The notes beneath the pieces are model-generated. The model was not told the origin of the DNA and did no database searches. It was given only the letters and a program-made list of their open reading frames with translations. Shown here in pieces: positions 13,858-56,399 of a stretch of 64,000 bases of DNA. The stretch is taken from contig NZ_QWFZ01000020.1 in NCBI RefSeq assembly GCF_003576315.1, forward strand, positions 62,001-126,000, in the 5' to 3' direction. This stretch comes from Henriciella mobilis (lineage in GTDB: Bacteria; Pseudomonadota; Alphaproteobacteria; Caulobacterales; Hyphomonadaceae). Made by a program: the position numbers and the translations under genes. Within the stretch, counting starts at the first letter, position 1. The number at the start of each line of letters is the position of its first letter.

Positions 13858-14064
13858 GCCCCCGCTGTCTCGGCGCCTGAGAGATTCCGCCTGACGCCCA
13901 TGTACCGGGCCGGCTTGCTCCTTCGGCGAGGCCATCAGCACGAAAATGACCGTGCCTGCCTCTTTCCAGCGTGTGGTCTCTCTCCCGGTCCTTTTGCCTG
14001 AGCGTTTCCGGGGCGGTTGCGCCTTCGGCGGCAGGCTGACGTTTGCCTGCTCTCTCCCGGGGAG
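13858..14064 (-). promoter_or_regulatory. Tandem glycine riboswitch
   Basis: Read on the minus strand, two glycine aptamers follow each other. The first (about 14063 down to 13981) has GGGAGAGAGC, the core GCCGAAGGCGCAA and the 3' side CTCAGGCAAAAGGACCGGG. The second (about 13976 to 13860) has the core GCCGAAGGAGCAA and the 3' side AATCTCTCAGGCGCCGAGACAG. The order and spacing match the cooperative two-aptamer class upstream of gcvT. Between the second aptamer and gcvT is a small hairpin (stem 13834-13838 with 13844-13848), with no obvious T run, so control could act on translation as well as on transcription. Glycine binding is expected to turn the operon on. Confidence 0.93.
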
Positions 14065-14159
14065 GAGATATTACTAACGACACACCTATTTCAGAGTCGC
14101 CCGCCCGGCAAGGCGATGACGCAATTGCGATGGAAATTCCCTGCGAGCGTGCCTGAGTC

Positions 14160-47639: not shown

Positions 47640-47764
47640 GATCTGATCCTCCAACGCCCGAAGGCACAATACGTGCTTGCTCCACAATTTGTTAGGCATC
47701 AAGCTTGACGATAGACGATTCCCGGCGCGGTCAGGGTCCCGCGTCCTTACCGGAGACCGACGCC

Positions 47765-50176
47765 ATGCCGTCATCGCCCCGCCAGCGCCTTTACATGTCG
47801 CGCCTCCTGCTCGGCGCCTCGCTAGCCGTGCCGCTGCTTATGGGAACGGCAGCCTGTGCAAGTGGCGGAGGCGGAGGGGGCGGCGGCACAACCACGCCGC
47901 CTGTTTCACCGCCGCCCCCGCCTCCCCCTCCGCCACCACCTCCTCCGCCTCCACCGGTGGGTGATCCGGGCGACTTCGAAACAAGCGAGTACAATTTCAC
48001 CGAGGGCCTGCCCTTTCTTGGCGCTTCTTCGGCCTACGCCGCCGGTGCGACTGGCCAGGGCATCACCATTGCGGTCATCGATACCTCCTTCGATCCGGAC
48101 CATCCGGACCTGGTCGGGCGCATTCTCTCGACCAGCTTCGACATCAATGCCGATACGCGAGCGGCCGACGACATCGACAATGAAGGCCATGGCACACTGG
48201 TCGCTGGCGTCATCGCTGCGAACAAAAATGACCTTGCCGGACACGGCATTGCCTTTGAATCCGACATCCTTGCCATCCGGGCCGACCGGCCAGGCAGTTG
48301 CCAGGAAACGGGTGAGGATGCTGGCTGCCGCTTTCCCGACCAGGACCTTGCCGATGCGATAGACGCTGCGATCGACAGGGGCGTGCGCATCATCAACCTG
48401 TCCTTGGGCGGCACGCCCGACACCAATCCCATTCTCGAAGACGCCGTGCGCCGCGCGGCGGCCGCTGGTATCCTCGTCGTGATTTCGGCTGGCAACGATG
48501 CCGAGCCGGCCGGGTCCGATCCCGACACAGGCGACCCTATCGCCGCGACGGGCACCTCGCTCAACGAACCCGCCAATGTCGCCGGCACGTCCGGTACTTT
48601 TGGCCGGGTCGTGGCTGTCGGCTCGGTGGATCTCAACGGCATCATCTCGGATTTTTCCAACCGCGCCGGCGACGGCAGCGAGCCGGGCTCAGACCCGAAC
48701 AACAAGAACTTCTACATTCTCGCGCCTGGCGAAGGCGTCGTGACGACCGGACCGGATGACGACATATTCTTTCCGGACCTTCCGACGTGTGGGCCGGGCG
48801 AGGTCAATGGCTGTAATGATACCGACGACGAGGGCGACTATTACATCGTCAGCGGCACATCATTCGCCGCGCCCTATGTCTCCGGCGCGCTGGCGCTGAT
48901 GCTCGACCTATTTCCCAACATGACACCGGAGGATGCCCTCTCCGCCCTACTCGAAAGCGCAGACGATTATGTCAGCACCAGCCCGGACCTCATCCGCGAG
49001 GAGACGGCCGGGGTTGGCGTCGATGCAGTATCCGGGGTCGGCACCATGAACCTTGCGGCCGCCTTCGCGCCGCAGGGCACGACCAGCTTCACCATCAACG
49101 GCAAGGCCATCCCAACGGGATATTCCTATGCGCCCGCCGCGGGCGCCTTCGGCGACTGGGCAAGCCAGCCCGGCGCCTTGGGCGAGCTGGTCTTTACCGA
49201 CAAGTTCAACCGCGCCTACCGTTTCGATGCCGCCAGTAACATGCCCGCAGGCAAGGCACGCGTGGCCGATTTTGATTATCGCGCCGATGCCGCTGCCGGC
49301 CAGTCGCATGCCGTGCGCCAGGGTCCGGTGACCTTTGCCTGGCACCAGCCTGCCTTCCGCGACGATCCGGCCATTCCCTATGACGAAGCGCCAATGGCCC
49401 AGTTCACGGCGCAATACGATTTCTCCGGCGGCTCGATCGAATTCGGGCGTGGTTTCGGGGCGAAATCGCTCGCTCCCGAGGTCAGCCTCATCAACGAGGC
49501 CGGCGCCCGCACCGGCTTCTCGGATGGTGGCTGGGCCCGCTTCAGCCACGATATCGGCGAGATGTCCTTCGAGATATTCTCCTCCGACGATGAGGATCTT
49601 TCAGTCTCCGGCGTCGGCCTGTCGCGCATCGAGGAGCGCTGGGGCGTTCGCGGCCAGATCTCGACCATACGCGATGAGCGCACGGCGCTGGGCGGCGTTA
49701 TCCAGGGCCGGTTTGGCGGGGAGGACCGCTCGCAGCTCTCAGCCTATGCGCTCGAAGGGGCGTATCGCCCGATGAGGAGCCTGCGCCTGTCGGCCGGCGT
49801 CGAGGCTGCGACCGTCGACCTGCCGGGCGTCGAAACCAGCAATGTCTGGACGAGCCGCTGGTCGGTCGGCGCCGACACGGTGACCGCGTTCGGACAGCTT
49901 GGCCTGACCGTCGCGCAGCCGCGCCGCGCCGAGGGCGGCACATTCGACTTTGTCGGCGTCACCGGCCTCGACGAAGACTTCAACTTCGTCTCCGAGACGA
50001 TCCGCGCGCCCCTTTCGCCGAGCGGACGGGAAATAAATTATGAGGCCAGCTGGGGCTTCGGCCTGCCGGGTGGTGTCGATGCAGGCCTGACGGCCACGCT
50101 GTCGACCCAGCCGAACCATGTGGCCAACGCCGACCCAGCCAGCGTCTACTGGTTCTCGCTGTCGAAGTCATGGTAG
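47765..50176 (+). CDS. Lipid-anchored subtilase autotransporter
   Basis: 803 residues. The start at ATG 47765 has GGAG upstream; the signal ends in a lipobox (VPLLMGTAACASG), as in Neisseria NalP. A Gly run and a 16-residue proline run (49-64) follow. The S8 protease domain has Asp106 (AVIDTSFDPDHPDL), His142 (EGHGTLVAGVIA) and Ser366 (SGTSFAAPYVSGAL). The last 280 or so residues alternate in the way of an outer-membrane beta barrel and end in aromatic SLSKSW. Probably exported to the cell surface and cleaves itself or other surface proteins. Monocistronic or co-transcribed with the next small gene (9 bases gap). Confidence 0.9.
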   Translation: MPSSPRQRLYMSRLLLGASLAVPLLMGTAACASGGGGGGGGTTTPPVSPPPPPPPPPPPPPPPPVGDPGDFETSEYNFTEGLPFLGASSAYAAGATGQGITIAVIDTSFDPDHPDLVGRILSTSFDINADTRAADDIDNEGHGTLVAGVIAANKNDLAGHGIAFESDILAIRADRPGSCQETGEDAGCRFPDQDLADAIDAAIDRGVRIINLSLGGTPDTNPILEDAVRRAAAAGILVVISAGNDAEPAGSDPDTGDPIAATGTSLNEPANVAGTSGTFGRVVAVGSVDLNGIISDFSNRAGDGSEPGSDPNNKNFYILAPGEGVVTTGPDDDIFFPDLPTCGPGEVNGCNDTDDEGDYYIVSGTSFAAPYVSGALALMLDLFPNMTPEDALSALLESADDYVSTSPDLIREETAGVGVDAVSGVGTMNLAAAFAPQGTTSFTINGKAIPTGYSYAPAAGAFGDWASQPGALGELVFTDKFNRAYRFDAASNMPAGKARVADFDYRADAAAGQSHAVRQGPVTFAWHQPAFRDDPAIPYDEAPMAQFTAQYDFSGGSIEFGRGFGAKSLAPEVSLINEAGARTGFSDGGWARFSHDIGEMSFEIFSSDDEDLSVSGVGLSRIEERWGVRGQISTIRDERTALGGVIQGRFGGEDRSQLSAYALEGAYRPMRSLRLSAGVEAATVDLPGVETSNVWTSRWSVGADTVTAFGQLGLTVAQPRRAEGGTFDFVGVTGLDEDFNFVSETIRAPLSPSGREINYEASWGFGLPGGVDAGLTATLSTQPNHVANADPASVYWFSLSKSW

Positions 50177-50185
50177 GCCGGAGAC

Positions 50186-50587
50186 ATGAAGACGCCTGCT
50201 CTCCTGTCCTCGGCACTTTTTCTCGGCGCCTGCTGCATGACCGGCATGCCAATGGCTGAAGACGGCGACCCGGACGCGGCTGGTAACCTCTGCGGCTTTG
50301 CGATCAAGGACGTTTCGGCCTGGCGCAACCAGATGCCTGGCCCTGATGGGCCGAGTGGAAACCTTGTCATCGTGATCGAGATCGAAGCCGACGAAATTTC
50401 GCGCCGCTTCCAGTCTGGCGGCATCAGCGAAAACGGGACGCTGCTGCTCGATATCGTCGAATGGGACCACCCCTCCGGCATCGGCAAGATCGTCTACCGC
50501 AAGAAGGGCGTACCAGCCGAACGCGTCGAAATCCGCTGCGGCGGCGAGATCGTCACGACCATCGACAAGATTGACACGGTCTACTGA
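50186..50587 (+). CDS. Small lipoprotein, function unknown
   Basis: 133 residues with a lipobox (LLSSALFLGACCM). The mature domain has a pair of Cys (NLCGFAIKDVSAW ... VEIRCGGEIVTTI) and a beta-rich look. It follows the subtilase by nine bases, and may be its chaperone, inhibitor or unrelated. Its end overlaps the convergent PAN-regulator gene by seven bases. Confidence 0.75.
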   Translation: MKTPALLSSALFLGACCMTGMPMAEDGDPDAAGNLCGFAIKDVSAWRNQMPGPDGPSGNLVIVIEIEADEISRRFQSGGISENGTLLLDIVEWDHPSGIGKIVYRKKGVPAERVEIRCGGEIVTTIDKIDTVY

Positions 50588-51336
50588 CGCGGCGCTGACT
50601 GCTGCTCCTGCCCGTCCGAGGGCTTTCGGGCATAATGGTCGTAAGGGTTGCGGTAATAGTCCGTCTTCAGCCCGCCGACATCTTTTGCTGAGGCGTTGCT
50701 CAGGTCACAGGTCTTGCGGATCGAGGAGAAGTCGAAGGACTTGCAGTAGAACTCCGTCTCCTCAAGGCAGGCCGTCATGCACCCCTTCAGAGAGAGGAAA
50801 GTCAGGGGGCGAGTATTGTGACCGCTGATGGCAGCATTGTAGGTGACCTCGAATTGCGAACGCAGCGCGTGCGGTGGTTGGAGCCACAGATAGATGCCTG
50901 AGCCCGTCGCCAGTAGCGCCGCCGCCAGACCTGCCAGCAGCCGCGGCCGCCGGCTCGCCCAGCGCATCGGCCAACTGAGCCAGTCGGCGCCCGGAGACGA
51001 TGGCGCGCCGGTGGACACAGTCTCGACATTCCCGACAAAGCGCAGGCCGATATTCGGAATGGTCCGGATCAGACGCTGGCTCGAACCATCGTCGTCGATC
51101 GCGGCGCGGGCGGCCCGCAAGCGGCTCGTCAATGCGGACGCCGAGACGATGCGCCCATCCCAGACGGCGTCGTTGATCTCGGCCTTTGTGACGGTCTCAC
51201 CGTGTTTTCTCACAAGCAGCAGAAGCAGCATGATGACCTGCGGTTCGGCTGCGACCGGCTCACCCGACCTGAAAAGCCGCATCGATCCGGAATCGATCTC
51301 GAAGTCCTCGAAACGGTAGAGCATTCTCCTTGTCAT
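50581..51336 (-). CDS. Membrane-spanning winged-helix regulator with a periplasmic PAN-like Cys module
   Basis: 251 residues from ATG 51336. Residues 8-102 are an OmpR/CadC-type winged helix (LYRFEDFEIDSGSMRLFR, VTKAEINDAVWDGR, RLIRTIPNIGLRFVG). One membrane helix spans 133-151. The outside part (162-236) is a PAN/apple-like domain with four Cys (186, 190, 198, 210) and the motif DVGGLKTDYYRNPYDHYA. A short charged tail follows. The same module forms the N-terminus of the divergent secreted protein, ungapped over 75 residues with about 43 identities. So the gene looks like a one-component membrane-bound regulator, with a sensor borrowed from the neighbour. The start is uncertain (51369 or 51324 also possible), because Shine-Dalgarno spacing is poor for all three. 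Confidence 0.85.
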   Translation of the reverse strand: MTRRMLYRFEDFEIDSGSMRLFRSGEPVAAEPQVIMLLLLLVRKHGETVTKAEINDAVWDGRIVSASALTSRLRAARAAIDDDGSSQRLIRTIPNIGLRFVGNVETVSTGAPSSPGADWLSWPMRWASRRPRLLAGLAAALLATGSGIYLWLQPPHALRSQFEVTYNAAISGHNTRPLTFLSLKGCMTACLEETEFYCKSFDFSSIRKTCDLSNASAKDVGGLKTDYYRNPYDHYARKPSDGQEQQSAPRQ

Positions 51337-51488
51337 GCTGGTACAGATTTCCCCCCTCACCAGACTCATGGTTAACCGAACAGGCCGCGGCAGGGAACGG
51401 ATAGCGGCCGGAAACCGGGATTCTGGTCAGATTCCGGGCAGTACCTATTCGCTTGTTTCAATGGCGTTTCCCGGCCCTCTTCATATTT

Positions 51489-51503
51489 CTTCATGCCATG
51501 AAG
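51489..51503 (+). promoter_or_regulatory. Perfect palindrome, candidate operator
   Basis: CTTCATG-C-CATGAAG, seven-base arms with one central base, in the 277-base divergent gap between the PAN regulator and the PAN secreted protein. A natural binding site for a dimeric winged-helix regulator. The same gap also holds the repeat at 51563-51581. Confidence 0.5.
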
Positions 51504-51562
51504 ACGCTTCTTCAGTGGTCCTTTGCTCCAGCCAGCGGCTAGCCTCGTGCCCGGGAGCCGAG

Positions 51563-51581
51563 CGTGCACCTGCCGTGCACG
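51563..51581 (+). repeat. Inverted repeat near the secreted protein's start
   Basis: CGTGCAC (51563-51569) and GTGCACG (51575-51581) with five bases between, about 33 bases before the ATG of the secreted PAN protein. Could be an operator or an RNA hairpin in the leader. Confidence 0.5.
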
Positions 51582-51613
51582 GGATTTAACCAGACCGGAG
51601 AACAGATCGTCTC

Positions 51614-53941
51614 ATGAGGAAAACAGAACTGACCAATCGGCGGGCACGCCTGGCGGCCCTGCTGATGCTTGCCGGCGCTGGCGCGGGCGGAATCGCGCAT
51701 GCCCAGCTGGAGAACTTTGAGTGGACCCCGAATGCCGCGATTGCGGGCCACAACAATCTGCGCCTCGACAATGTCACAAAACAGCAATGCGCCTCAGCCT
51801 GCATGACCGTCCGGGAATTCTCCTGCAAGTCGTTCGACTATCACAAGAATGACAATGCCTGCGATCTCAGCGACGCGACGGCGGCCGATGTCGGCGGCCT
51901 GAAAACCGACTATGCCGATAATCCTTACGATCACTATGCCATGAACGACCTCGTCGAGATCCTGGCCCAGAGGGCTGAAGACGCTGTCACGAAAAGTCCG
52001 GTCGTCGAGGATGTCGAATACGCCATCCGGCAGATGACGGGCCGCAAGGCATCCATCTTCGAAGCTGACCTCGACGGTTTCGTCGATAAGTACGGCGCCG
52101 GCATGCACATCGGCGATCACGTCCAGGGTATCACCATGACCGCTGGCGGCCGGCTCGTCGTCTCAATATCGCGCCAGGAGCACGATGAAGCCCCCAGATG
52201 CGGCGGCGTGCTGGCCTTTTCCTCGCCCTTCGATCCCGACAATCCTGACCGCACGCTCGACTGGACCTATTATTGCCACAGCGATGACGGCCTCGAGGGC
52301 CACCCAAGCGCCATTCAGGCTGCGGGCGACATCGTCGCGGTCGGCACATCCTGGAAGGATTTCGGCGTCAGGAAGAGTGGGTCACGCTACTACCACATCT
52401 CGCCAGAAGGTGAGGTCGAACACCTTTGGCACCTGAAGACAGAGGGAGGACGGGACGCAACCGGCCTCGTCTACAACCGCGCTGAAGGCCGCTACTACAC
52501 GCTCAACGCCGACGGGCTGATCAAATCCGGATATGTCGATGCGGAAATCTGCCGGACCGAGCGCAACGCCTCGCTGATGAGCCGGTCCACCAAGTTCGAC
52601 GACTGCCGGACGATTTCGGTCCCGGCATCCGGGCAAGGCTCGAATCTTATCGCACAGGCAGACGGCAAGCTGTTCCTCGCCTCGGCCTTCTCCAGCGATG
52701 TCGGCCACCTTGAGAACACCGACTACCCCCAATGGGTTCGTGAGGGCGACTATGGCGTTCGCTGCGTCGCCGAGGGCGCTGGCGCCATCGCAGCCGGGTA
52801 TGACGTGCGCACGAAATATGAAGACGTTGTGGTTCTGGCAGAGATCGACTTCGTCCGCGGCAAGGCAAAGACGGTGTACGAAGCCAATATCGAACGCACC
52901 CAGCGCGCGCAGACATGCGTCCAGCAGCGCCCGGCCTTCCGCTTTGCCGGAGGGTTTTCGCCTTATGGCAAGGAAGGTCGCATCCTTGGCCTCTGGTCGG
53001 GCCGGCAGAATCCGGTCGGCCAGGTTCACACGGACGAGCTCGAAATTGCCTACCAGCCACTTTCCCAGCGCGGCACGCAGAGCCTCGACTATTCGGTCTC
53101 GATCGATTGCGAGGTTGACGATATCGGCAATGAAAGCACCGGAAACACGATCACAGCCACCTTCTACAGCTCCAGCCGGCGAAAGCTGGGCAGCGCCTCG
53201 ACCGATGGCGTCACCGCCGCGGCCTGCACCTTCACCTGGGTCGACCTGGAAGCGACGCTTGATGAATCGGCCGAGTACGTGACCATCAGCACCAATGGGG
53301 ACGATGGCTTCATGGTCGACCGGATCGTGCTCGAAAAGGATGGCGACGAGATTCGCACCTATGGGCTCAACAATGACAAGGGCTGGTGCTTTTCGACTGA
53401 TCGCGGCGATGCCGATGGTAGCTGGAACTATGCCTCAGACGGCGTTTGCGTGACGGAGCATACCTGGAGCTATTCCGGCCAGCCTGTCACCTTCAATCAG
53501 TGGGACACGCTGGCGGCGGCCGCCAGCAGCAACAAGCCGAAGGTCCGCTACAGTCTCGATATCGACTGTGACGTTGACGGGATCGACAATGAGGGCACCG
53601 ACGACCGTATCACGGCAGTCTTCATGGATGCCAACAAGAAGGAAATCGGCCGCGGCTCCATCAAGGAAAACACCGAGCGGGGCATCCTCGGTTGCTACGA
53701 CATCGAGTTCGACGTGATCACCGATGGTCCGGCGAGTTGGTACCGCATCGAGACCGACGGTACCGATGGCGCAATGCTCGACCAGATCTTCGTCTACAAG
53801 AATGGCGAGGAAGTCGACGTCGAGGGCGTCTCCAACGACCGCGCCTGGTGCCTGTCAAACGATCCTGACGACGCCTCACGCAGCTGGAAGGGGCATGCCG
53901 CCTACAATACCTGCAGGGCCTCCTGGGAATTCGAACTTTAA
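51614..53941 (+). CDS. Large secreted protein with N-terminal PAN-like module and C-terminal tandem repeats
   Basis: 775 residues. Signal peptide ending AHA at about residue 30. Residues 35-109 are a PAN/apple-like Cys module (Cys 59, 63, 71, 83; DVGGLKTDYADNPYDHYA). A helical linker of 110-155 follows. The middle, about 160-490, is beta-rich and looks like a propeller or a similar ligand-binding domain. The C-terminus has two homologous repeats (about 492-619 and 645-773), each with Cys at matched positions (499/652, 538/694, 592/746, 612/767) and ending W-C near W/DGxW and Trp-Ser-Tyr type motifs. Related to the periplasmic domain of the divergent regulator. No enzymatic motif recognised; not anchored by lipobox. 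Possible roles: ligand capture, adhesion, matrix. Confidence 0.88.
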   Translation: MRKTELTNRRARLAALLMLAGAGAGGIAHAQLENFEWTPNAAIAGHNNLRLDNVTKQQCASACMTVREFSCKSFDYHKNDNACDLSDATAADVGGLKTDYADNPYDHYAMNDLVEILAQRAEDAVTKSPVVEDVEYAIRQMTGRKASIFEADLDGFVDKYGAGMHIGDHVQGITMTAGGRLVVSISRQEHDEAPRCGGVLAFSSPFDPDNPDRTLDWTYYCHSDDGLEGHPSAIQAAGDIVAVGTSWKDFGVRKSGSRYYHISPEGEVEHLWHLKTEGGRDATGLVYNRAEGRYYTLNADGLIKSGYVDAEICRTERNASLMSRSTKFDDCRTISVPASGQGSNLIAQADGKLFLASAFSSDVGHLENTDYPQWVREGDYGVRCVAEGAGAIAAGYDVRTKYEDVVVLAEIDFVRGKAKTVYEANIERTQRAQTCVQQRPAFRFAGGFSPYGKEGRILGLWSGRQNPVGQVHTDELEIAYQPLSQRGTQSLDYSVSIDCEVDDIGNESTGNTITATFYSSSRRKLGSASTDGVTAAACTFTWVDLEATLDESAEYVTISTNGDDGFMVDRIVLEKDGDEIRTYGLNNDKGWCFSTDRGDADGSWNYASDGVCVTEHTWSYSGQPVTFNQWDTLAAAASSNKPKVRYSLDIDCDVDGIDNEGTDDRITAVFMDANKKEIGRGSIKENTERGILGCYDIEFDVITDGPASWYRIETDGTDGAMLDQIFVYKNGEEVDVEGVSNDRAWCLSNDPDDASRSWKGHAAYNTCRASWEFEL

Positions 53942-54036: not shown

Positions 54037-55080
54037 CTACCGCGCCTCCATGCCGGCAATCCACTCGCGCACCAGCGCAACGCCATCCTCGTCGATGACG
54101 GAGCGGCCAAGCTCGGGCATCGCGATGCCTGCCTCGGAGGACGCCATCCGGTAGCTGAGGATGGACTTGTCCGGCTGCCCCGGTGCGATCACAAAGACCG
54201 CATCGCCTGAGCCACGCCCGGCGGCCGTCGGATGCTTGCCGATGCCGATGGCCGTCGGGGTATCGACCTCATAGCCCAGGAAAAGGCCGGAATTGGAGGC
54301 CGAGCCCTCCAGCCGGTGACAGTGCGCGCAATTGATATCGAGATAGGCGCGGGCGCGTTGCTCCAGCGGCGCGGTCGCGTCGGATACCTCGGGCACCGTG
54401 GGCGGCGCCTCGGGAAGACCGGCCAGGATGCCGCGCGCGGCCCAGTCTGCCAGCTGCGCATGGCCATAGGGGCCCTGATGATTGAGATTGCGCGCCTTCG
54501 GCCCGATCGGCGCAATCGCATCGCCGAGCTGGTGGCACGTCTTGCACTGGTTCTGGTTGGGGACGCGATAGTCGATGTCCAGCGCCGTGCCGTGCTCGTC
54601 CGTGAAGGCGAGGTCCAGCCAGGCCCCGGCGGGCGCATAGACCGCCTCGGTCTCCTCCTCGTTCCAGACATAGGGATAGGCCGCCCAGCCTTCGGCCTTG
54701 CGGATCAGCAGGCGCGTCTCGCGATAACGCTCATCGACCGAGGGCTGGCGCATGTCCGGGGCGAAGGCGAAGGTCTTGACCAGCACCGTTCCGACCGGAA
54801 AGTCGAACACCTCATCGGGCCGGTAGGCGGCCGCCTTGTCCTTCGGCACGTAGACGAAACGGTGCTTGGCCGCGTGATCGGAGAAAAGCGGATTGACGAG
54901 ATTGTAGGAAACGACGCCCTCGGCCGGCTCTCGCGCGCTGGCGTCCGCGAACAGGCCGTACTCGGAAAGCGTCCGCGCGGGCTTTTCCGCGAGGATCGTG
55001 TTCAGGTCCGGCCCGGCCGCCGTCTGCCCGCACGCCGCGAGCAGACCAGCCAGCAACGCGGCCGCAAGGTGCCGCATCAT
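54037..55080 (-). CDS. Diheme c-type cytochrome lipoprotein (HNE_0200 / SO2930 type)
   Basis: 347 residues with a lipobox (LLAGLLAACGQ). Two heme-binding CxxCH motifs: QCKTCHQLGDAIAP and NCAHCHRLEGSAS. The surrounding sequence (GPKARNLNHQGPYG; ISYRMASSEAGIAMPELG-like end) matches the conserved family typified by Hyphomonas HNE_0200, which is almost always next to a beta-helix lipoprotein. Here its start overlaps that gene's stop by four bases. A periplasmic electron-transfer partner is likely, with the beta-helix protein as the substrate-binding or structural part; the reaction is unknown. Confidence 0.9.
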   Translation of the reverse strand: MMRHLAAALLAGLLAACGQTAAGPDLNTILAEKPARTLSEYGLFADASAREPAEGVVSYNLVNPLFSDHAAKHRFVYVPKDKAAAYRPDEVFDFPVGTVLVKTFAFAPDMRQPSVDERYRETRLLIRKAEGWAAYPYVWNEEETEAVYAPAGAWLDLAFTDEHGTALDIDYRVPNQNQCKTCHQLGDAIAPIGPKARNLNHQGPYGHAQLADWAARGILAGLPEAPPTVPEVSDATAPLEQRARAYLDINCAHCHRLEGSASNSGLFLGYEVDTPTAIGIGKHPTAAGRGSGDAVFVIAPGQPDKSILSYRMASSEAGIAMPELGRSVIDEDGVALVREWIAGMEAR

Positions 55081-56330
55081 TCGGCGTGTTCGAGCGTGAT
55101 CGCCGGTAGCGGATCAAACCGGTCCGCGTCCGGCCTGTCCATCGTCGGTGCGGCATTCTCCACGCTGATGGGGTATGTCCCGAGGCCGAGATTGATGAAG
55201 CCGACCGTGTCCGGCTCGTCGATGAAGATGTTCACATCAGTGTCCGTCTCATCGCCCCAGCGCGTGACGCCATCCCAGACGATTGGCGGCAGGCTGCCGC
55301 CGACCAGCGGCGCGAAGCTGCCGAGAATTCCCTTCGGATTGTAGCCGCTGCGGCCATAGGTGTTGCCAAAGATGGCGACGTTGCGCGGCAGCGGGTTGTA
55401 GGCCTCGTCGGTGAACGGCTCGGTATAGGCGGTGATCAGGATCTGGACGGTCTGGTTGTCGCCAAACCGGTTGTTCGACACCTCGACCTTGTCATTCGCC
55501 ATGATGATGACGCCAGTCCCGGACGGCACGCCAGCCACGATATTGCCGGGCGGAGCGAAGTTGCGGGTATTATTGTCGAGGATGTCATTGTCATAGACTG
55601 CGGTGGAATTGCCGCCCATGACCGGCAGGTCCGGCAGGTCGAAGACGAGGATGCCGCCCGCATTGTGGCGGGCCGTATTGCCATAGACCGCAGCGTTGGT
55701 GGAGTTCTCGATCTCGATCCCGGCGACATTGTATTCAGCCAGGCTGTCGCGAACGATGATCCTGTCGGACTGGCCGACATAGATGCCGGCATCCGAGGCG
55801 CCGCGCACCGTCACACGCTCGACCAGCACATCCGTACTCTCGACCGGATAGACGCCGTAGGCGCCATTCTCCTCGTCCGGCTCACCCAGCCATTCGACCG
55901 TCAGGTCGCGGTAGATGATGCGGTCGGCATCCTTGGACTTGATACCGTCGCCCTTCGTCTCCTGGATGGTGAAATTCTCCAGCGTTACATCATCGGCCGT
56001 GACCAGAAGCCCCTCGCCCGAGCCACGCTGGCCGGAGAAATCGAGGATGGTTGCACCCTCGCCCGCGCCGGTGATCGTCACCCCATCGACATCGAGGGAG
56101 AGGCCGTCCGTCATCATGAACGTGCCGCGCGGCAGCGTGATCGTGCTGCCCGGCTCGGCTTCGATGAGGAGGGTCTGCAGGCGCGCGGCGAAATCATCGC
56201 CAGGCTCCAGGCTCGCATTGGTGTCGGCGGCGTCCGTGCTGGCCGGTGCGTCCGTATCCTCCGTTCCGCCCGGTCCACCACAGCCCGAAAGCAGGGCCGC
56301 CGCGGCGGCCGCCATGATCATTGTGCGCAT
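55077..56330 (-). CDS. Parallel beta-helix lipoprotein paired with the diheme cytochrome
   Basis: 417 residues from ATG 56330 with a lipobox (AAAAALLSGCGGP). A long right-handed beta-helix is evident: repeated VTLENFTIQETKGDGI, VLVERVTVRGASDAGIYVGQ, IIVRDSLAEYNVAGIEIENS and so on, with N/D/G-rich turns typical of NosD/pectate-lyase-like proteins. Companion of the TIGR03806-type cytochrome; the two form one operon with a four-base overlap. Pair conserved in Hyphomonas, Shewanella and others. Function unknown; the operon could handle a polymer or surface redox task. Confidence 0.9.
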   Translation of the reverse strand: MRTMIMAAAAAALLSGCGGPGGTEDTDAPASTDAADTNASLEPGDDFAARLQTLLIEAEPGSTITLPRGTFMMTDGLSLDVDGVTITGAGEGATILDFSGQRGSGEGLLVTADDVTLENFTIQETKGDGIKSKDADRIIYRDLTVEWLGEPDEENGAYGVYPVESTDVLVERVTVRGASDAGIYVGQSDRIIVRDSLAEYNVAGIEIENSTNAAVYGNTARHNAGGILVFDLPDLPVMGGNSTAVYDNDILDNNTRNFAPPGNIVAGVPSGTGVIIMANDKVEVSNNRFGDNQTVQILITAYTEPFTDEAYNPLPRNVAIFGNTYGRSGYNPKGILGSFAPLVGGSLPPIVWDGVTRWGDETDTDVNIFIDEPDTVGFINLGLGTYPISVENAAPTMDRPDADRFDPLPAITLEHAE

Positions 56331-56399
56331 TCCGAAAGGCCTCCCGTCCTTTTTATCTGACGGAAGTGTCACTTTTTTCGCGGGCAGCTGCAAGGGTCA

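Follow-up and report, generated by a model that had tools for sequence, protein, structure and literature searches.

The window analysed here is a stretch of 64,000 nucleotides from Henriciella mobilis (assembly GCF_003576315.1, contig NZ_QWFZ01000020.1, positions 62,001 to 126,000 of the forward strand). Between positions 50581 and 53941 it carries two divergent genes, one for a predicted membrane-bound transcription regulator and one for a large secreted protein, and the products of both contain a PAN domain of the same type. A preliminary description, made from the sequence alone, had read the regulator as a winged helix, a membrane helix and a PAN module, and had proposed a regulatory link between the two genes that was built on the shared module. 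The regulator gene and its parts are as follows.

50581..51336, minus strand: PAN-bearing membrane transcription regulator, 251 amino acids (an alternative upstream ATG at 51369 gives a longer frame)
51037..51264, minus strand: cytoplasmic OmpR/ToxR-type winged helix (residues 25-100; PF00486 and Foldseek)
50881..50937, minus strand: single transmembrane helix (about residues 134-152; hydropathy, and a helix at 131-152 in the AlphaFold2 (AF2) model)
50626..50853, minus strand: periplasmic PAN_1 domain (residues 162-237; PF00024)

This architecture is confirmed by Pfam, Foldseek and hydropathy. The matches to Trans_reg_C (PF00486, E about 1.4e-9 to 1.5e-9) and to PAN_1 (PF00024, E = 5.7e-8) lie above the curated Pfam cut-offs, and Pfam finds both domains in all five intact regulators, namely that of the window and the four orthologues described below. 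The winged helix gives a good model, which Foldseek matches to ToxR (8b4b) and CadC (5ju7) with a root-mean-square deviation of 1.9-3.3. In each of the five proteins a hydropathy peak at 125-134 marks one membrane helix; a second, weaker peak within the winged helix of two of them represents buried core. The Arg-rich segment MRWASRRPR precedes the membrane helix and is placed on the cytoplasmic side by the positive-inside rule. The closest solved structure to the PAN is that of plasminogen (1e-5). The NCBIfam model for CadC scores 29.5 bits on the regulator against a cut-off of 400 and, since PAN_1 stands in place of the CadC/ToxR periplasmic fold, the regulator is not an orthologue of either protein. 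At its 3' end lies a convergent gene on the opposite strand (50186-50587), which overlaps it by 7 bp; the 133-residue product of this neighbour is probably secreted and has no match in Pfam or NCBIfam.

On the other side of the intergenic region is the gene for the secreted protein.

51614..53941, plus strand: secreted protein, 775 amino acids (reading frame), divergent from the regulator
51614..51703, plus strand: signal peptide MRKTELTNRRARLAALLMLAGAGAGGIAHA (sequence reading and hydropathy)
51716..51940, plus strand: PAN_1 domain (residues 35-109; PF00024, 2.2e-8)
51980..53068, plus strand: all-beta, propeller-like core (about residues 123-485; AF2 and Foldseek, fold class only)
53081..53938, plus strand: a pair of all-beta repeats at the C-terminus, each of about 130 amino acids and of no known family

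The core was modelled with a predicted local distance difference test score (pLDDT) of mostly 50-90, and the structures that Foldseek returned for it were mainly propellers, e.g. sialidases and GH43, with low template modelling (TM) scores that are to be read at the level of fold class only. No family or sequence match to the core was found in Pfam, NCBIfam or the PDB. The PAN of this protein has a pLDDT below 50, in a model based on an alignment of only 6 rows. The product is predicted to be Sec-exported, with a probable beta-propeller core and a beta-sandwich tail.

The periplasmic module of the regulator had been equated in the preliminary description with residues 35-109 of the secreted protein, at about 43 of 75 residues identical without gaps. 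The measured value is 43 of 76 (57%), also gapless (E = 1e-25), and the two modules score 32.9 and 34.3 bits with PF00024, for which the cut-off is 21.4. The four cysteines and the motif GGLKTDY/YDHYA are indeed common to both, and the window genome (3.97 Mb) contains no further module of this PAN type. The motif does not, however, mark the pair. The PAN of the window regulator is 45-52% identical to those of the orthologous regulators, the PAN of the window secreted protein is 49-51% identical to the same set, and the window modules share 44-48% identity with PANs from unrelated secreted proteins of genome G119, which belongs to another family (47-48% for the window secreted PAN alone). The identity of the window pair thus barely exceeds the level of the subfamily, so that the shared motif characterises the PAN subfamily; the four cysteines are invariant across the nine PAN modules that were aligned. 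Of the G119 proteins, one has 1080 amino acids and two tandem PANs (L061 5287-8529) and the other has 274 amino acids and one N-terminal PAN (L062 6063-6887); neither is accompanied by a PAN regulator.

At the DNA level the PAN-coding segments of the pair are identical at 138 of 228 positions and at 35 of 76 third codon positions (46%). This last value led us to reject the idea that the secreted gene recently acquired its PAN as a duplicate of that of the regulator; any copying must be old. The best PAN tree groups the regulators together with a support of 51/70. The window pair as a clade lacks support in the tree, yet it is not rejected by the approximately unbiased (AU) test (p = 0.43), and as a test of whether the secreted PAN originated in a regulator the tree did not decide.

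The distribution of the two genes was determined in a family set of 105 genomes, and the PAN was also sought in wider sets from the order (398 genomes), the class (385) and the phylum (349). Four members of a sister genus (G079, G080, G084 and G085) each encode a full-length orthologue that is 44-47% identical to the window regulator, giving five intact winged helix-transmembrane helix-PAN regulators in the family when the window genome (G000) is included. The PAN search of the three wider sets yielded no further intact regulator: the PAN profile gave one weak match in the class genomes, to a non-regulator, and nothing in the phylum genomes outside the window genome. Likewise, PF00024 run over 220 genomes of the order returned other PAN proteins, with no winged-helix fusion among the loci read, a set that left out the PAN of L084 at a contig end. 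Homologues of the secreted core were found by a core search only in G079, G080 and G085, with a fragment in G029, and a search of plasmids and viral contigs for the core produced no relative. In four of five cases (G000, G079, G080 and G085) the regulator and a homologue of the secreted protein are encoded divergently, and these four pairs span two genera and two different chromosomal places. This recurrence shows that the pairing of regulator and secreted gene is real.

The partners in G079, G080 and G085 are 48-49% identical overall to the window secreted protein, and in all three the signal peptide leads directly into the core, with no PAN between them. Only one partner of the four, that of the window, carries the module, which may reflect a local gain or a loss elsewhere, the tree favouring neither. 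These data bear on the proposal that the shared PANs are themselves the mechanism, such that PAN-PAN pairing or competition for a ligand would let the amount of the product set its own expression. The 57% identity of the window pair is the highest value in the matrix that involves either window module, both PANs would occupy the periplasm, at least in transit, and yeast WSC domains, which have a related PAN fold, may cluster homotypically (PMC9024836). The proposal is nevertheless improbable, and we give it little credence, because three of the four partners lack a PAN despite a conserved regulator, operator and partner, and because the two window modules are only slightly more alike than the other modules compared and do not form a supported clade. 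The shared PAN is thus not a conserved mechanism. What stands of the proposed link between the genes is the fourfold pairing and the conserved box described below. Rarity of a PAN-bearing secreted gene beside homologues of the regulator, which the preliminary description had named as evidence against its proposal, is what we find for the shared PAN (one of five) and not for the unit of regulator and secreted gene (four of five).

The C-terminal beta repeat is present in three copies in the G080 and G085 homologues, compared with two in the window protein. Both of these genomes also contain tandem paralogues of the secreted gene: at L037 3867-9245 and L038 10183-15640 there are three, of 841/867, 562 and about 353 amino acids, of which the first has three C-terminal repeats, the second has the core and fewer repeats and the third is without the core.

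The intergenic region of the window contains three elements of interest.

51478..51494, plus strand: operator-like direct repeat TCTTCATATTTCTTCAT (CTTCAT-N4-CTTCAT; on the other strand TGAAG-N5-TGAAG, with tox-box geometry)
51510..51515, plus strand: weak extra half-site CTTCAG, at the position of the second repeat pair of the sister loci
51540..51545, plus strand: TAGCCT, a putative -10-like hexamer for the secreted gene, at 61 bp from the box start

The repeat has a period of 10 bp, and its geometry is the one seen in the ToxR tox-box, TNAAA-N5-TNAAA (PMC8517210). The string TCTTCATATTTCTTCAT, as 16-17 bp, is common to the intergenic regions of the window, G079 and G080, which are otherwise hardly alignable between the genera. 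When the sequences were shuffled with preservation of dinucleotides, shared strings as long as this were obtained in 1 of 1000 trials for G079 and in 0 of 1000 for G080; the boxes of G084 and G085 are diverged copies that fall below detection by the shuffle test alone. In the family set an exact box is present in two of the 105 genomes, both times at the locus of the regulator and the secreted gene. With at most one mismatch allowed, the number of matches is six, and four of these lie at PAN-regulator loci; with two allowed, the background amounts to about 0.5 per genome. A box with at most two mismatches lies upstream of all five intact regulators in a constant orientation to the regulator, and each of the four paired genomes has a single such match, sited at the shared promoter. 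Matches in G082, G005 and G032 have no gene of the system nearby, and an additional match in G084, on C106, is inside an unrelated coding frame; these were discarded.

One may ask whether the two genes are merely chance neighbours and the targets of the regulator lie elsewhere, as the rarity and patchiness of the pair and the partnerless regulator of G084 might suggest. Such a coincidence is scarcely credible, because the same divergent partner recurs in four of five genomes, which span two genera and two chromosomal places, and because the only box that each of the four contains is sited at this promoter.

The position of the box speaks to the direction of control. The distance from the start of the box to a hexamer of the form (T/C)AGN(C/T)T is 61, 62, 61, 62 and 61 bp in the four pairs and in a relic locus of G029, although this pattern was picked after the promoters had been inspected, which makes the small chance value calculated for it an unsafe guide, and scans of the region for sigma-70 promoters and terminators gave results at chance level. 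A second repeat pair is found 22 bp beyond the box in G079 (where it is weak), G080 and G085, and in these sister loci it abuts the -35 region. The regulator might be a repressor of the secreted gene, or of its own gene only, because the box sits between both gene starts and remains with the lone regulator of G084. We consider repression quite unlikely, since a box located upstream of the -35 region, with its start about 61 bp ahead of the -10-like hexamer, occupies the usual place of an OmpR/ToxR-type activator, and since the second repeat pair of the sister loci adjoins the -35 region.

Three incomplete loci provide additional information. The relic in G029, a member of the window's genus, turned up unsought in the family-wide box search (L121 7838-8066, corresponding to G029:C1:2057837-2058065). 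It retains the box pair, about 90 bp and the last approximately 43 codons of the secreted gene, the interior of which has been deleted, and no regulator is nearby. In G007, also of the window's genus, a decayed remnant of the C-terminus of a PAN regulator, GGLKTAYCRNPYNHYARK..., lies between a beta-helix gene and ahcY, with no box (L060 8598-8828, C4). Finally, G084 has a lone regulator and the first box, with no second pair, no -10-like hexamer and no secreted gene. Taken together, these cases tie the box to each of the two genes independently. They suggest that the regulator, the box and the secreted gene form an old unit that is undergoing loss.

The architecture, the divergent pairing, the conservation of the operator and the lack of a PAN in the other partners have been established computationally. 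The reading that we prefer, with a probability of roughly 70%, is that the locus encodes a dedicated one-component switch of the ToxR/CadC type, in which a periplasmic PAN senses an envelope ligand and activates the neighbouring secreted gene. DNA binding, the direction of control, ligand sensing and autoregulation are here predicted from sequence. The regulator would reside in the inner membrane, with its winged helix in the cytoplasm and its disulfide-rich PAN in the periplasm, where the PAN may sense a glycan or protein ligand at the envelope or surface. In response, the winged helices would attach to the divergent promoter at the tandem direct repeat, immediately before the -35 region, and the bound regulator would switch on the single adjacent gene for the secreted protein. 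Control by the regulator of its own gene is also probable, because the box persists at a lone regulator without a partner gene.

The sensing step could be explained differently. The regulator PAN might bind no ligand and serve as a disulfide-dependent dimerisation or redox module that reads the redox state or stability of the envelope. All four PAN cysteines are invariant in the nine modules, and published work describes a functional intramolecular disulfide in CadC (PMC3096576) and a control of ToxR proteolysis by cysteine redox state (PMC6242745). However, the four cysteines of a PAN are normally structural, and the non-cysteine motif GGLKTDY...HYAR is conserved as strongly as the cysteines in the five regulators, which suggests a recognition surface on the regulator PAN. 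A redox module is therefore unlikely, although it deserves some weight. Within the ligand-sensing switch, the additional PAN of the window secreted protein would most simply allow product and sensor to recognise the same ligand, and it would be dispensable for switching. A tentative extension, which we also regard as unlikely while keeping it in view, is that the sensor and the product compete for one envelope or surface ligand, or are bridged by it.

Several observations weigh against the switch that we favour. The AF2 model of the regulator PAN has a pLDDT below 50, from an alignment of only 5 rows, and three of the five intact regulators are closely related to one another. The box of G085 has two mismatches, and the longest run that its region has in common with the window intergenic region is 8 bases. 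In the window itself the second repeat pair is degenerate.

Elsewhere in the window, a diheme cytochrome (TIGR03806) and a parallel beta-helix protein (TIGR03805), which match consecutive NCBIfam models, are encoded on the minus strand at 54037-56393 with a 4-bp overlap; the same pair is also found beside the ahcY region in G007. A subtilase with an autotransporter barrel-like C-terminal region (47705-50176) is missing from the syntenic stretch of G007. A glycine riboswitch aptamer is present at 13977-14069 on the minus strand (64 bits).

Like ToxR and CadC, the regulator of the window has an OmpR-type winged helix at its N-terminus and a periplasmic sensor at its C-terminus, joined by a single membrane helix, and like ToxR it has a putative tandem direct-repeat operator of tox-box spacing near its target promoter (PMC8517210). 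It differs from CadC, ToxR, TcpP and VtrA, the periplasmic domains of which have other folds, in that its sensor is a PAN. A survey of ToxR/CadC-type regulators does not mention PAN (PMC10269533), and we found no bacterial DNA-binding membrane regulator with a PAN sensor in the literature searched, in agreement with the preliminary description, which knew of no CadC-like regulator of this kind. As far as this literature shows, the class of membrane one-component regulators is known and the PAN sensor is new. PAN/Apple proteins such as plasminogen, HGF and yeast Wsc1 share the four-Cys PAN_1 module, and Wsc1 is also a single-pass membrane sensor with an outer domain of the PAN fold (PMC9024836), but these proteins are eukaryotic and are without a direct DNA-binding output. 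The co-component systems VtrA/VtrC and ToxR/ToxS resemble the present locus in that a membrane winged-helix regulator is accompanied by a neighbouring extracytoplasmic protein (PMC9214523). In those systems the partner is a co-sensor from the same operon. No gene for a small membrane or periplasmic co-sensor was found in the operon of the window regulator, and its partner is a large, divergently encoded secreted protein that is apparently the regulated product.

The unit is minimal, with one regulator, one box and one target from a family unmatched in Pfam, NCBIfam and solved structures, and this simplicity could help to reveal the ligands of bacterial PAN domains. The related loci amount to a natural experiment, in which the same regulator occurs with a PAN-bearing partner, with a PAN-less partner or with none. 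For a module common to sensor and product, the best precedent by analogy would be the clostridial RsgI/SigI systems, in which the outer domain (CBM3, GH10) is of the same module kind as in the secreted proteins under control (PMC4711584). RsgI is an anti-sigma factor whereas the window regulator is a one-component protein, and module sharing is seen here in one of four loci. If sensor and product of the window do share a ligand, they would constitute a Gram-negative counterpart of the RsgI biomass sensors that binds DNA directly and has feedback built in.

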